34,827 nucleotides of DNA from Mycoplasmatota bacterium (GTDB lineage: Bacteria; Bacillota_I; Bacilli_A; Izemoplasmatales; Hujiaoplasmataceae): the NCBI GenBank assembly GCA_016342455.1, contig JAEIOE010000021.1, positions 1 through 34,827 on the forward strand, given 5' to 3'. Of the stretch, positions 12,453 to 25,808 are shown piece by piece. Every line of letters starts with the position of its first letter. The stretch's first letter is position 1. The notes beneath the pieces were generated by a model, which saw only the letters and a program-made list of their open reading frames with translations, was not told the origin of the DNA and did not search any database. The position numbers and the translations under genes are program-made.

Positions 12453-13796
12453 TTACCAGAATACTGGTATTCCAAATGGTAATGTTCCTTGGTCTAGGTA
12501 TTGTAAGTATGAATAGCCTGCGAATCCTAGGACAGCAACTATTAAAACAATTATTACAATCCATGTGATTCTTCTGCGACGGCGTTTTTTATAATATTTC
12601 TTAATGATTTGATTAATTTTTTCATCAAGTAATTCTTTTTCAACATTTGTAAGAAGAGATTCATCTACTTCTTTAACAGTTGTTAATACTTGTTCTTCTG
12701 GTTCTTCAGCAAATGCTGGTGCTTCTTCAAAAACTTCTTCTACAACAGGTTCTGGTTCAGGTTCTGGTTCAGGTTCTGGTTCAGGCTCTGGTTCAGGTTC
12801 AGGCTCTGGTTCAGGTTCTGGTTCAGGCTCTGGTTCAGGTTCTGGTTCAGGCTCTGGTTCAGGTTCTGGAATTGGCGCTACTACTATTTCTTCGATTTCT
12901 TCTTCAACTTGAACAATTACTTCTTCAACTGTTTCCTCTACGATAACTTCTTGTTCAATATCGTTCCAAACATCTTCTTCAATAGTTGATAATGGAATGT
13001 TGTAATTAAAGTTATCTTTAAAAGTTTCTTTTTGATACATTCCCATAGCGAACTCGATAAATTCAATCATATCGCGTTTTTTAAGATCGATAGAAATTTG
13101 GAAACCTTTTTCTTTTGCATATAATTCTAAATCTAAGACTGACTTTTTAGCAAGCAGTTCAGATTCATCATCTGTAAGTTTAAATTTTGCTGTAAGGATT
13201 TCTATGAGTTTTGATTTATTAATACGTCGAGGAACGTTAACGTTATATTTTTTACCTAATCCTTTTAAATCTCCTAGTGTATAAGATGCGAGAACATCAT
13301 CATCATATTTAGTAATTTCCATTCCATCTAAATATCTACTTTCTTGACTGAAAACATCTGCAAATATTTCTAAGAAACTTTCGTAATTCATCACTTCAAG
13401 ATCAACAGTATAATTGTGTTGAAGTTGTTCTAACTCTTTGATGAAATTTCCTTTAATAGAAAATTCGTCTAGATTGATAAATAAGAAATCAAACAATAAC
13501 TCTTTGTATCTTGTTAAATCAAAATCTAAATTATAAGACTTAATCAATTTTTCAAGTAAAAAATTAGAATATTGATCATATCCTCTCAATCTAAATTTTT
13601 GTTCATCACTGTAGGTATCGTATACCCTTTCCTCAAAGACTTTATCACGGATTGTTTCCTTCAATAAAAATCTGTGAACAGAACAAGGAAGCTCAATTTT
13701 ATACTTTGATATTAAGTCCTTAATCTCTTCAGTTGGAATTACAACTAAACGTTTTGAAAATTCAAAATATTCCTCATTTGTTTTGAATTTACTCAT
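12453..13796 (-). CDS. Tail-anchored protein with SAP-like segments and a P(EP)20 tract, function unknown
   Basis: I do not recognise this 447-residue protein as a named family. The N-terminal 270 residues are helical and charged. They hold at least one SAP/HeH-like segment ([25 protein letters not shown], split here as LKGLGKKYN and [10 protein letters not shown]) and a second similar one (LELYAKEKG to KKRDMIEFI). Such folds often bind nucleic acid. An acidic stretch leads into Pro-Glu repeats (about residues 310-350), more acidic sequence, then YYKKRRRRR and a single membrane helix (about 410-431) with 16 residues after it. The positive-inside rule puts the N-terminus in the cytoplasm, and there is no signal peptide. 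GGTGAG precedes ATG 13796; a GTG six codons upstream is less likely. It heads the mutSL-miaA operon, where Bacillus has ymcA/cotE. Function is not inferred. Confidence 0.8.
12747..12869 (-). repeat. Hexanucleotide tandem repeat encoding P(EP)20
   Basis: These 123 bases are a run of alternating Pro (CCA or CCT) and Glu (GAA or GAG) codons, 21 Pro and 20 Glu. On the plus strand the unit is GGTTCA/GGTTCT/GGCTCT. GAG codons recur at 18- to 24-base spacing, which suggests growth by duplication of 24-base blocks. The 6-base period keeps frame, so copy-number change would alter spacer length without a frameshift. Confidence 0.95.
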
Positions 13797-13826
13797 AATC
13801 TCACCCTTTTCCACTATACTACTTAT

Positions 13827-13937: not shown

Positions 13938-15362
13938 TTATAAAGCTTCCCCTTCGAGTGACCAGGTCTTTGCTTCTATGATACGAACTTCTACTATTTG
14001 ACCAATTGTTTCTTTGCTAGCCTTTAAATTTATTAGCTTATTATTTTCAGTACGACCTGATAGAACTTCGGGATTGTTTTTAGAAATTCCTTCAACCAAT
14101 ACTTTCACAGTGTGATCTTGGAATCTAAGATTCCCTCTTTTATATCCTTCATTGACTAATTCATTTAATCTATGTAAACGATCTTTCGCAATCTCTTCTG
14201 TGATATCAGTCTCGTAAGTAGCTGCTGGTGTTCCTTTTCTTTTTGAATAGACAAAGGTGAAGGCTCCTTCAAAGTTCGACTTTCTTACTAAATCTAGTGT
14301 GTCTTGGAAGTCCTCTTCTGTTTCTGTTGGGAATCCAACGATAATATCAGTAGTTATTGAAACATTAGGCATTGCTTTATAAATTCTATCAACTAAATCC
14401 AAATATTGTTCTTTCGTGTATTTACGATTCATTTTCTTTAGGACTTTGTTAGAACCTGATTGTACTGGTAAGTGAATATGTGGCATCACTGAATCTCTTA
14501 TAGCGATTACATCAATTAACTCATCTGAAAAGTCTTTTGGATGACTTGTTTGAAATCTAATTCTTGGAACTCCTAAATCACTTAGATCTTCTAATAGATT
14601 AGCAAAACTGTAGTTATAATTTTCAAAGTCTAATCCATAAGAATTCACATTTTGCCCTAATAGCGTGATTTCCTTATATCCTCTTTCCAAAAGATCTTTA
14701 ACTTCTTCAATAATATATTCTTTCCTTCTTGATCTTTCTTTTCCTCTAGTATAAGGAACGATACAGTAAGTACAGAACTCATCACAACCATACATGATAT
14801 TAACCCAAGCTTTAAATCGGTTGTCTCTAGCATGCGGCAGATGTTCTGTAATATGTCCTTCTTCAGAAAAGACTTCAATCAATGATTTGTTTTCTTTCAT
14901 AACATAATTTAAGTATTCTATAAACTTAGAAATATTATGTGTACCAAAAACAATATCAACATGTTTATATGTCTTTAGTATTCTTTCTACAGTAGCTTCT
15001 TCTTGAGGCATACAACCCGCAACTGCAATAATGAGATTAGGATTGACTCTTTTAAAACTTTTTAGTCTCCCAAGTTCACCGAAAACCTTGTTTTCAGCTC
15101 CTTCTCTAATTGCACAGGTATTAATTAATACAAGGTCTGTTTCTTCTAAAACATCAGTCTCTGTAAACTTTTGTTCTAAAAGCATTCCTTTAATTATTTC
15201 TGTATCTGCTTCATTCGCTTGACAACCATGAGTTTGGATCAGGAATTTTTTTCCTAAGCCTAAATCTTTGATATCTTTTGATAGTTGATATTCATTTACA
15301 AGCACTTCTGATTTAGAACGCTTTCTCGCAGTTCTTAAATCGGGTTTATTCATTCTTTCCAT
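13938..15362 (-). CDS. miaB: tRNA-2-methylthio-N6-dimethylallyladenosine synthase
   Basis: MiaB is a radical-SAM enzyme that converts i6A37, made by MiaA, to ms2i6A37. The 474-residue protein has an N-terminal methylthiotransferase domain with Cys47 (HGCQAN), Cys83 (NTCAIRE) and Cys117 (GCMPQ) for the auxiliary cluster. The radical-SAM cluster CDEFCTYC has its cysteines at 193, 197 and 200, and a C-terminal TRAM domain (about 407-470) binds tRNA. All key cysteines are present and length is normal. Its ATG lies two bases past the ymdB stop, and the ribosome site AGAGG sits in the last ymdB codons, so it is coupled to ymdB. MiaA and MiaB lie in adjacent operons. Confidence 0.97.
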   Translation of the reverse strand: MERMNKPDLRTARKRSKSEVLVNEYQLSKDIKDLGLGKKFLIQTHGCQANEADTEIIKGMLLEQKFTETDVLEETDLVLINTCAIREGAENKVFGELGRLKSFKRVNPNLIIAVAGCMPQEEATVERILKTYKHVDIVFGTHNISKFIEYLNYVMKENKSLIEVFSEEGHITEHLPHARDNRFKAWVNIMYGCDEFCTYCIVPYTRGKERSRRKEYIIEEVKDLLERGYKEITLLGQNVNSYGLDFENYNYSFANLLEDLSDLGVPRIRFQTSHPKDFSDELIDVIAIRDSVMPHIHLPVQSGSNKVLKKMNRKYTKEQYLDLVDRIYKAMPNVSITTDIIVGFPTETEEDFQDTLDLVRKSNFEGAFTFVYSKRKGTPAATYETDITEEIAKDRLHRLNELVNEGYKRGNLRFQDHTVKVLVEGISKNNPEVLSGRTENNKLINLKASKETIGQIVEVRIIEAKTWSLEGEAL

Positions 15363-15363
15363 A

Positions 15364-16128
15364 TTATTCCTCTTTTATGTTTATTCTAGTAATTTTTTTA
15401 GTATCTAAATCAAGTAATACAGCATTAAATTGTAGTAATCCGCTTTTTTCTGCTTTTACACGTTCAGGTACGCCTGAGACAAACTTACGTATACCTTGAG
15501 CAACTTCTCCACCAATAATACCATATTTAACTCCAGACATCCCTACATCTGTTTGATACATTGTCCCGAAAGGTAACACCATCTCATCCGCTGTAGGTAC
15601 ATGTGTGTGTGTTCCAATGACTGCATCTACTCTACCATCAAGGTAATGAGCTAAGGCAATTTTTTCACTCGTTGCTTCAGCGTGGAAATCCACGATGATA
15701 TGCTCCGCATCAATAGTTTCTAATAATTCATCCATCTTTGTAAATGGATTATCAATAGGATCACGCATGAAAATTCTCCCTAAGAGATTAACAACAGCGA
15801 CTCTAGTTCCATTATAGTTATAGATAACATATTCGTTACCAAGCGTTCCTGGACCATAGTTAGCAGGTCTAGCAACGTATGGTAAGGCTAATACTTCAGG
15901 ATAGTCTCTTCTAGAGAAAGCGTGGTTTCCTAGGGTAAAGACATTTACTCCTCTTTTTAGATAATCTTTATAGATTTCTTCCGACAAACCATTCGTATCC
16001 GATATATTTTCACCATTAACGATTATAATTTGTGGTTTGTATTCTTGTTTTACACTAGCGAAGTATTTATCAAAGGCTTTACGCCCTTGTTCCATATAAA
16101 CATCACCAATAAATAGTACTTTCATCAT
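15364..16128 (-). CDS. ymdB: YmdB-type metallophosphoesterase
   Basis: The 254-residue protein is a calcineurin-like phosphoesterase of the YmdB family. These enzymes hydrolyse 2',3'-cyclic nucleotides in vitro, and in Bacillus YmdB affects RNase Y activity and biofilm formation. Metal ligands are visible: Asp9 (IGDV), Glu40/Asn41 (NGEN), Asn68/His69 (TLGNHAF), His149, His174 and His176 (GTHTHVPTAD). The DVGMSG motif follows. Linkage to rny matches Bacillus. The first of two tandem ATG codons overlaps the TGA of the upstream NUDIX reading frame as ATGA, a coupling junction that remains although the NUDIX gene now carries an earlier in-frame stop. Its ribosome site (AAGAG) is weak, so expression may depend on that coupling. 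Confidence 0.95.
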   Translation of the reverse strand: MMKVLFIGDVYMEQGRKAFDKYFASVKQEYKPQIIIVNGENISDTNGLSEEIYKDYLKRGVNVFTLGNHAFSRRDYPEVLALPYVARPANYGPGTLGNEYVIYNYNGTRVAVVNLLGRIFMRDPIDNPFTKMDELLETIDAEHIIVDFHAEATSEKIALAHYLDGRVDAVIGTHTHVPTADEMVLPFGTMYQTDVGMSGVKYGIIGGEVAQGIRKFVSGVPERVKAEKSGLLQFNAVLLDLDTKKITRINIKEE

Positions 16129-16643
16129 AAACTCTTTTCTAGGACACCAAAGTAATCATATGTTGGAAGGTAAATCAAAAAGTTCCAAAATTCTTGGGCA
16201 TCAATCATTTTTAATATTTTTTCTTTCGAATAGTATGCTACATCCTTCACTTCTACGCTATCAAGGACTAAATCGTCCAATTAGACATCTTTATGAACAA
16301 GATATATCTCAACTAGGTAATTTGCATCATCGTTGTCTACGTACAAAGAATCTATATGCTGAAGTTCTGATTCTTTTAGAACGATACCAATTTCTTCGTA
16401 AGTCTCTCTAATAGCTGACACTATTGGAACTTCTCCACTAGTAACAGCTCCTGCTGTCGGTGCCCACTGATAAGGATTCCTGTCAGTGGCTTTGTTTCTT
16501 TGTTGTACTAGATAGTCACCAAATGAATTTCTAATCCAAATGTGCACCACTTTATGGTATTCACCCGATAAGTTCTTCGTGCCTCTAGCCATTTTTTTAT
16601 TAAGTTTCATTCCATTGATATCAAATAAATCAAAATATTCCAT
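16125..16643 (-). pseudogene. NUDIX hydrolase interrupted by an in-frame TAA
   Basis: The frame codes for a NUDIX protein of 172 codons but has TAA at 16281-16283, codon 121. Before it lie 120 residues with an intact NUDIX box, GAVTSGEVPIVSAIRETYEE (65-84) followed by IGI, so the metal-binding glutamates are kept. After the TAA the same frame runs 51 more sense codons (opening LDDLVLDSVEVKDV) with no other stop. It ends in TGA overlapping the ymdB ATG as ATGA. That arrangement shows the gene recently extended to 16125. The sequence resembles the YfcD/isopentenyl-diphosphate-isomerase-like NUDIX group, but the substrate is unknown. A read error, a real nonsense mutation or stop readthrough are the options. 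The ATG follows GGAGG, which directly abuts the U-run of the rny terminator. Confidence 0.82.
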
Positions 16644-16652
16644 AAATCCTCC

Positions 16653-16692
16653 TTAAAAAAAAGAAACCTTCCATAAATAATCTGGAAGGTTT
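16653..16692 (-). terminator. Terminator after rny, abutting the NUDIX ribosome site
   Basis: AAACCTTCCA (16664-16673) and TGGAAGGTTT (16683-16692) form a 10-bp stem with a nine-base loop. On the minus strand a run of eight T follows after four bases, and the AGGAGG of the NUDIX gene comes right after it. No promoter fits between, so NUDIX-ymdB-miaB must rely on readthrough or on a promoter inside rny. Confidence 0.88.
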
Positions 16693-16698
16693 GATTTC

Positions 16699-18276
16699 TT
16701 ATTTTGCAATGTTTTGAGCACGAGTCTCTCTTATAACTGTAATTTTTATCGTTCCAGGATAGCTTAATTTTTCTTCAATTTGTTCTTTGATTTCTTTAGC
16801 AATTACATGTGTCTTCGCATCGTCAACCTCATTTGGTTTCACAATAACTCTAACTTCTCTACCTGCTTGAATAGCAAAGGCAGATTCTACACCCTTCACT
16901 TGAGAAGATATTTCTTCCAATTGTGATAAGCGATTTATGTAATTTTCTAATGATTCAGATCTTGCTCCTGGTCTAGCGGCGCTTAATGCATCTGCTGCAG
17001 CTACTAATACGCCGATAATAGTAGTCGCTTCATGGTCTCCATGATGTGATTGAATTGCATCTAATACAGCTGGATGTTCACGGTATTTTTTAGCTAATGC
17101 GATACCAATTTCTACGTGTGAACCTTCCACTTCATGGTCAACTGCTTTACCGATATCATGTAGTAAACCAGCTCTTTTTGCGATAATTTCATTTTCACCT
17201 AACTCAGCTGCCATTTTTCCAGCTAGGAAAGCAGTCTCAATTGAGTGTTTTAAAGCGTTTTGGCCATATGATGTTCTAAAGTTTAGTCTACCAAGTAATT
17301 TTGTTAAGTCAGGATGAATCTTACCAATACCCGTTTCGAATACGGCTTCATCTCCTTTGTCTCTAATAAATTGATCAACTTCAACTCTTGTTTTTTCTAC
17401 GATTTCTTCAATTCTAGCTGGATGAATTCTTCCATCTGAAATTAAAGTTTCTAATGCTTTCTTGGCAATTTCTCTTCTTATCGGATCAAATCCAGATAAT
17501 ACGACAGCCTCTGGTGTATCGTCAACAATTAAGTCAACTCCAGTTAAGGCTTCGATTGCACGAATGTTTCTTCCTTCTCTACCGATAATACGACCTTTCA
17601 TTTCGTCGTTTGGTAAAGTAACAACTGAAACTGTTGTTTCAGCAGTAACGTCTTGAGCATATTTTTGGATTGCATCTGAAATAATTTCTCTAGAACGTTT
17701 TTGAGCATCTGATTTAGCTTGTTCCTCTTCATCTCTTAAGTAACGGTCTATTTCTTCAGCCATGTCTACTTCAACACGTTTCATAATAATATCGCGAGCG
17801 TCTTGCTCGGATAAGTTTGCAATTTCTAAAAGTTTAGTGTTTTGTTCGTTGATGATTTTTTCCAGTTCATAGTTCTTTTCGTCAATTGCGGATTTTCGAT
17901 TGTCTAAGATCTCTTCTTTTCGGTCTAAATTAACTTCACGTCTATCTAAGTTGCTAGATCTACGTTCTAATAATTCATCACGTTGATGCATTTTGTTCTC
18001 ACGAACAAGATGATCTTCCTTCTTTTCTTTTAATAGTTTATCATTTGCTTGATTTAAAATAAAGATTTCTTGTTTTGCTTCTAAAAGTCTCTCTTTTTTA
18101 ATTCTTTCCGCTTGAGAAGTAGCATTGTCAATGATACCTTGTGATTTATTTTTTGCAGTTTGAAAACCTTTTTCAACTACTCTTACTCTTAAAATAAAAC
18201 CAACTAATACCCCAATTGCTAGAGCTAACACACTGGAAATAACAACTTCAACTACACTAATTGCAGCGAATAACAT
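16699..18276 (-). CDS. rny: Ribonuclease Y
   Basis: RNase Y is the membrane-bound endoribonuclease that starts mRNA decay in many Gram-positives. The 525-residue protein has an N-terminal membrane helix (about 5-28), a long charged coiled coil (about 35-200), a KH RNA-binding domain (around [15 protein letters not shown]) and an HD catalytic domain ([12 protein letters not shown] for the HD pair). Length is normal. The ATG follows AGGAG. It has its own consensus-like promoter and a strong terminator, so it can be a single-gene unit, with partial readthrough into NUDIX-ymdB-miaB. Bacillus has recA, rny and ymdB in the same order. Confidence 0.97.
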
Positions 18277-24373: not shown

Positions 24374-25036
24374 CTACACTAATTTTTTATCAAATAACAC
24401 TTTAGAAACAACTATAGTAACTATCGCTGCTAATAAAATAGTAATCATCATATTTGCAATAATAAATTCTGGTGCTACAAATGCTAAAATCACAACAAAC
24501 ACAAGCGGTGCTATCGTTAATTTTAAATTACCCTTGAAGTATTTATATCCTAAAGCACCAAATAAAGCTGAAATGACCCAATTAAATGCAGGAGCTAATA
24601 CTTCACTTTGTAGAATTGGAGTTAAAGGAATTAACATCACAACTCCTAAAGATAAAATTAATACAGTAGTAATCGACGAAAAAGCAACTGCTAAGGCTGA
24701 AATAACTTCATTTTCATCCGTACCTATCTTCGTTCCACATAATTCAGTAGCGTTCATCACACAAGGTACTTTTAAATTCACAAGGTTCCCTGTTATAAAA
24801 GCCAAATAAGTAGCTGAAGTTCCTAATAATGGAGAATAAGTCATCATTTCAATTGCTCCGCCAGGTAAGAAAATAATAGATAAAGCTAATACTCCGGTAA
24901 ACAATTGGCTAAGATTAGGTGCTACACCTGTAATAAGCCAGATCATTACTGGAGCTAAGAACATCACACAGATACCCATGATAGTAAATAACTTACCATA
25001 TTTATGCATTTCATTTCTATAAGTAGAATTATTCAT
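24374..25036 (-). CDS. Multi-pass membrane protein paired with a DUF5058-like protein
   Basis: I do not recognise a named function. The 220-residue product has about six hydrophobic segments (roughly 17-40, 45-62, 68-90, 112-138, 145-165, 178-215). A loop between the third and fourth contains MNATELCGTKIGTDENEV, which may be conserved because it is the only long polar stretch. Its ATG shares bases with the stop of the upstream gene (TAATG), and GGAGG lies 10 bases before it, so the two are tightly coupled. The frame is open upstream to 25120, but those 28 codons lie inside the other gene. Together they look like a two-subunit membrane transporter serving the M20 peptidase; this is inference. 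Confidence 0.75.
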   Translation of the reverse strand: MNNSTYRNEMHKYGKLFTIMGICVMFLAPVMIWLITGVAPNLSQLFTGVLALSIIFLPGGAIEMMTYSPLLGTSATYLAFITGNLVNLKVPCVMNATELCGTKIGTDENEVISALAVAFSSITTVLILSLGVVMLIPLTPILQSEVLAPAFNWVISALFGALGYKYFKGNLKLTIAPLVFVVILAFVAPEFIIANMMITILLAAIVTIVVSKVLFDKKLV

Positions 25037-25785
25037 TAGTAGATACCTCCTAATCCTAGAAGCACAGCGGAAGTCATCCCAATTAACATCGATAAGGTCA
25101 ACTGAAAGTTTTCTAACCACTTCACACTTTTCTTATTCACTAAGAAATCAAATCCCATCATCGAGAGAAACGATACCACGAAAACAACCAAAGGAACATA
25201 GGTACTTCCATTTTCTGAATTATTAACTATTCTAGAAAATGCTTCTCCAAAATAAGCAGCTATCAACCCAATAAATACAGATTGAAATAATAAAGGCCCA
25301 AAGCTTCTTCCCTCTTTTTTCGTAGCTTTATCAACCACTTTAGCTTGATATTTTTTAAAGAAGAATAAAGTAAATAAACTTCCCCAAACAATAGCTATCG
25401 TCATCGTAAAAGCAATTGTTACAAAATTTTCAACTGTCATAGTCGCAGCTGTTACATCACCAACGGCTGTATCAACTGCCAATAATTCATAATGCAAAGC
25501 TCCTAACACTGATAAACGAATCCAAGGCAGTGCAATACCTAGTAAACCAGACATTGTAATAACCCCAATAAAGATACCGATAGAAGGTAGAATACTAAAA
25601 CTTACTGAAGAAATTACCGCCTTTTTAATACTTTCCTTTTCCATCCCTAATTCTTTTGAATGCTTATAGGCTTTATAAGCAAAAAATAAAGAACCACAAA
25701 TGATAAATATTGTTACAAATGCGCCAATGCCATAAAGCCACCATGCACCCCTAACCTCTGTAATTGTAATTGCATTAAACATCAT
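25036..25785 (-). CDS. DUF5058-like multi-pass membrane protein
   Basis: The roughly 249-residue product has about seven hydrophobic segments and resembles proteins annotated DUF5058, whose function is unknown. Visible features are an N-terminal segment after WWLYGIGAF, a conserved-looking run around SFSILPSIGIFIGVITMSG, the LPWIRLSVLGALHYEL loop, and a short polar region before the last two segments. Of several ATG codons I favour 25785, because AGAGG lies 9 bases upstream; 25794 would touch the ribosome site. It is the first gene of a three-gene operon with the next membrane protein and the M20 peptidase. The SVLGALHYELLA stretch is the best seed for a family search. Confidence 0.75.
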   Translation of the reverse strand: MMFNAITITEVRGAWWLYGIGAFVTIFIICGSLFFAYKAYKHSKELGMEKESIKKAVISSVSFSILPSIGIFIGVITMSGLLGIALPWIRLSVLGALHYELLAVDTAVGDVTAATMTVENFVTIAFTMTIAIVWGSLFTLFFFKKYQAKVVDKATKKEGRSFGPLLFQSVFIGLIAAYFGEAFSRIVNNSENGSTYVPLVVFVVSFLSMMGFDFLVNKKSVKWLENFQLTLSMLIGMTSAVLLGLGGIY

Positions 25786-25808
25786 TTTCATCATCCTCTC
25801 TTGATACT

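Follow-up and report, generated by a model that had tools for sequence, protein, structure and literature searches.

An in-frame TAA codon in a NUDIX hydrolase gene upstream of ymdB in a draft genome of the Hujiaoplasmataceae

The NUDIX gene and its neighbors

The window, i.e., the whole stretch of 34,827 nucleotides analyzed here, was contig JAEIOE010000021.1 (C108) of a Mycoplasmatota bacterium of the family Hujiaoplasmataceae, whose draft assembly (GCA_016342455.1) comprised 2.43 Mb in 108 contigs and was 97.8% complete. It harbored a NUDIX hydrolase gene between rny and ymdB, all three on the minus strand. The features of the locus, in coding order, were:

16699..18276, minus strand: rny (ribonuclease Y, TIGR03319), intact, upstream of the NUDIX gene
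16664..16692, minus strand: hairpin between rny and the NUDIX gene, AAACCTTCCA...TGGAAGGTTT, with a T run behind it (16655-16662)
16648..16654, minus strand: AAGGAGG ribosome-binding site of the NUDIX gene (-11.1 kcal/mol)
16125..16643, minus strand: NUDIX hydrolase gene (YfcD/DR0079/IPP-isomerase-like), 173 codons including the TGA, interrupted at codon 121
16284..16643, minus strand: upstream half, 120 amino acids with the complete NUDIX box, ending at the end of a predicted strand (109-120)
16281..16283, minus strand: in-frame TAA, codon 121, at a position variable in the alignment of relatives
16128..16280, minus strand: 51 downstream sense codons, with a predicted strand and two predicted helices, conserved residues intact
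16131..16142, minus strand: ctagaaaagagt, the last NUDIX codons doubling as a weak Shine-Dalgarno (SD) sequence of ymdB (-6.2 kcal/mol) and almost identical in relatives with a NUDIX gene
15364..16128, minus strand: ymdB (PF13277), intact, the conserved start being the second ATG (16123-16125)
13938..15362, minus strand: intact gene downstream of ymdB, syntenic in relatives (tblastn), which we take to be miaB-like from knowledge of the family

SD energies, here and below, were computed against an assumed anti-SD sequence, the 3' end of the 16S being absent from the sampled part of the genome. The NUDIX box, the TAA and the 51 sense codons following in the same frame, as given in a preliminary description of the locus, were all reproduced on the minus strand. 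The full box (GAVTSGEVPIVSAIRETYEEIGI), recognized as GX5EX7REUXEEXGU from the sequence and from a PF00293 match above cut-off, lay within the first 120 codons. The frame terminated with a TGA (16125-16127) overlapping the ymdB start; the 4-base ATGA overlap described earlier holds for the first of two consecutive ATGs, but the second, from which nearly all relatives' YmdB aligned, is the likelier start and gives a 1-base overlap (TGATG). A 51-codon open stretch is expected by chance with P = 0.017 at 31.6% GC; such openness is weak evidence, and homology is decisive for a real tail, which aligned with full-length orthologs across its whole length.

The hairpin and T run behind rny (16655-16692) resembled an intrinsic terminator immediately followed by the NUDIX SD, and relatives displayed an equivalent hairpin after rny. 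Because the NUDIX SD directly follows this hairpin and leaves no room for a promoter, NUDIX and ymdB would be reached by transcriptional readthrough or from a promoter within rny. Elsewhere in the window, a gene at 12453-13814 encoded a long Pro-Glu repeat tract, then a run of basic residues and, close to the C-terminus, what looks like a membrane segment, and two membrane-protein-like frames (24374-25120 and 25036-25794) overlapped by 85 bases as listed; the start of the downstream frame of this pair may be misplaced.

Read across the stop, the NUDIX product matched PF00293 over residues 29-145 (E=1.5e-11), and its 120-residue short form was still recognized by Pfam (E=4.8e-10). The match to NF011922 (YfcD; E=1.5e-8) scored 34.5 bits, far below the curated cut-off of 152 bits, and a phmmer search of the PDB with the raw sequence gave no match. 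An AlphaFold2 model, built on a 3-sequence alignment in which the TAA was treated as an amino acid purely for folding (mean pLDDT 71.7, the last 17 residues below 50), placed a strand (135-138) and two helices (140-148 and 164-170) within residues 121-172. The closest solved folds found by Foldseek (E=4e-5 and 5e-5), E. coli YfcD (2fkb), DR0079 (2o5f) and type 1 IPP isomerase, were the best family and fold matches of the gene, although TM-scores reached only about 0.4-0.5 on this modest model and the window gene differs in being interrupted. According to the model, the 120-residue product would keep the catalytic NUDIX box without the strand-helix part completing the fold, and is probably unstable or inactive.

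Orthologs and history of the NUDIX gene

Within the order (90 genomes, the window's own included), 59 genomes contained a NUDIX match, and an internal stop was found in the window's match and in none from the 89 other genomes. Aligning the region with related genomes, the check proposed beforehand, placed a sense codon at position 121 in 25 of 28 relatives, a gap in two, and one sequence did not reach it; no relative had a stop there. Residue 121 was variable among them, and the stop sits at a poorly constrained position just past a predicted strand. Close orthologs were mostly 166-173 amino acids long and directly preceded ymdB, within an order rny-NUDIX-ymdB-miaB common to the window and its relatives (tblastn synteny). 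A naturally shorter protein ending at codon 120, the finding that would have argued against an interruption, was ruled out, as no close relative ends there. The locus hence displayed an in-frame stop within a frame that is full-length in orthologs, which is one of the features of a nonsense-mutation pseudogene.

Conservation was compared on an alignment with 20 orthologs. Well-conserved positions were kept at 11 of 12 sites after the stop and 41 of 44 before it, both within the range of intact genes, and the ratio of C- to N-terminal identity (0.80) fell among those of intact orthologs (0.65-0.96). The gene's own branch accumulated 0.27 (N-terminal part) and 0.52 (C-terminal part) substitutions per site, values within the ordinary range of this tree. 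If substitutions fell at random, the median number needed to create a second stop in the 153 bases would be 11. No decay was seen after the stop, 51 codons without a close relative being too few to display a slight one. Since the tail is conserved as in intact orthologs, the stop would be young, or unreal, or the tail still translated; the nearest orthologs, sharing about 57% identity, are too distant for dating it. As for the three options proposed earlier, related genomes thus favored a recent stop or a read error, while readthrough found no support.

Reading the 29 other ymdB loci of the family displayed the NUDIX gene in 8 and its absence in 20, where ymdB lay directly behind rny and its hairpin; the remaining locus starts too close to a contig end to judge. 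Presence and absence both occurred inside single genera (g11 and g6), and family f3 possessed a NUDIX gene at the same place. Repeated loss at the rny-ymdB site within the family is the simplest history, and a gene absent from so many of these loci, repeatedly lost, would therefore be dispensable. At the NUDIX-less loci, ymdB mostly carried a strong SD directly after the rny hairpin, a layout matching that of the NUDIX gene itself in the window; they give the appearance of a clean excision of the NUDIX frame, with ymdB adopting its ribosome site.

The same species was sought among the contigs of other genomes, in a search that possibly omitted its own genome, and only relatives with YmdB identity of at most 79% were obtained; a pattern search of viral contigs for the same species gave no match. 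Named relatives closest by YmdB included records called Bacilli, Tenericutes and Candidatus Izemoplasmatales.

Origin of the stop codon

Interruptions were scanned by comparing a complete relative (G027, 1.2 Mb of its 1.65 Mb) with about 31% of the genome (753 kb), sampled as stretches; overlapping antisense shadow frames were removed, and internal stops were counted when flanked by at least 15 residues on each side. With 375 genes of the relative matching over 127,385 aligned residues, the NUDIX TAA was the only internal stop, and no split-frame pair of this genome was listed in the same comparison; judged from these sequences, the assembly appeared generally clean. The seven other NUDIX genes of the genome were uninterrupted. 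TAA terminated 18 of the 28 window genes and was the commonest gene-ending stop there, two release-factor genes were present, both open, and none of the tRNAs found in the sampled part had a UUA anticodon. An alternative genetic code with reassigned TAA was ruled out by the single in-frame stop in the gene comparison, by the two release-factor genes and by TAA being a common terminator; in practice, recoding can be dismissed.

The explanation that we consider probable is a nonsense mutation that recently struck one codon of a dispensable NUDIX hydrolase gene, with the TAA presumably real in the organism; the evidence comes from one assembly of one species. A nonsense mutation is ordinary, and all that is seen here fits known kinds of event. 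The case resembles the isolated in-frame stops described in bacterial genes (PMC7918605) in having one stop, no other damage and conserved flanks, with the difference that one genome only is known here.

The main rival, possible though doubtful, is a sequencing, assembly or mixed-strain consensus error, in which case the organism would have a sense codon and an intact gene. The tail without decay and the perfect ymdB junction fit an error, as do the fragmentation of the draft into 108 contigs and the uniqueness of the event in 753 kb, since one chance error would yield the same count. However, the change resembles a substitution and not an indel, the reading frame being preserved before and after it, and 375 other matched genes were without internal stop or evident frameshift.

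Readthrough of the TAA, by ochre suppression or driven by its context, would supply some full-length NUDIX protein and keep the coupling to ymdB. The conserved downstream half would agree with it, and a survey makes the case that readthrough renders many of the isolated in-frame stops of bacterial genes functional, though most are short-lived (PMC7918605). It is nevertheless improbable here, given that no other in-frame stop occurred in the 375 genes and no relative had a stop at codon 121, that a UUA-anticodon tRNA was missing from the sampled tRNAs, and that TAA is in ordinary use as a terminator in the window. UAA is recognized by both release factors, and the two release-factor genes were open. 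No other match in the order had an internal stop, in contrast to the conserved stop expected of programmed readthrough, and general readthrough is unsupported.

We also regard as very unlikely that the 120 residues form a functional short NUDIX enzyme, or that the gene is split with its second half starting from a TTG after the stop. The complete NUDIX box with its Pfam match and the position of this TTG immediately behind the TAA speak for such forms, but the short one would lack the last strand and helices as well as the conserved tail residues and has no counterpart among close relatives, while hardly any SD precedes the TTG (-1.3 kcal/mol). That the TAA is real and has become fixed in the species, with a partial readthrough whose level sets the output of NUDIX and, via coupling, of YmdB, is scarcely credible.

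Translation of ymdB and loss of the NUDIX gene

Termination-reinitiation coupling was reported in 13 of 14 tested overlapping gene pairs (PMC6728339), and a spacing of about 20 nt nearly abolished coupling in H. volcanii and E. coli (PMC10666635). The full NUDIX frame resembled the ATGA/TGATG pairs of these studies by its -4/-1 overlap with ymdB, kept in relatives: the NUDIX stop lay -4 to +2 bases from the ymdB start in all nine NUDIX-bearing loci. The truncated frame differs, its TAA preceding the conserved ATG by about 155 nt and the first ATG by 152 nt, away from the near contact of stop and start that typifies a coupled pair; the coupling of NUDIX and ymdB is itself putative.

The ribosome site of ymdB, earlier described as weak, is so when compared with the -9 to -12 kcal/mol of many window genes, but it is no weaker than that of intact relatives, which carry an almost identical (c/t)tagaaa(a)ga stretch as ymdB SD. 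The mean ymdB SD energy was -6.5 kcal/mol at loci with NUDIX versus -8.3 kcal/mol at loci without it (Mann-Whitney p=0.006, ignoring relatedness). The ymdB SD region folded more weakly than shuffled sequences (z=+1.5), by which burial of this SD in structure was ruled out. Neither this genome nor the family's 33 others had a match above cut-off to the RNA-binding domain of Rho (PF07497), and Rho-dependent polarity on ymdB is accordingly unlikely.

Under a recent nonsense mutation, ribosomes loaded at the strong AAGGAGG site would make 120 of the 172 residues and then terminate, and the NUDIX product would lose its function through the missing C-terminal strand-helix part. Termination, formerly 1-4 bases from the ymdB start, would now occur far upstream of it, so that termination-reinitiation coupling would be lost and ymdB left to its own weak but unfolded ribosome site, with reduced translation. 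That the TAA uncouples ymdB translation, as proposed earlier, is a reasonable reading of the junction. As the ymdB start lacks strong folding and the search for Rho gave no match, YmdB would more likely be lowered moderately than be subject to full polarity.

For annotation, the NUDIX gene should be marked as interrupted, and ymdB may be affected as a consequence. Among the loci compared, a dispensable gene has repeatedly gone missing from the interval separating rny and ymdB. The present genome may display an early step of such a loss, in which ymdB still carries a weak ribosome site suited to coupling.
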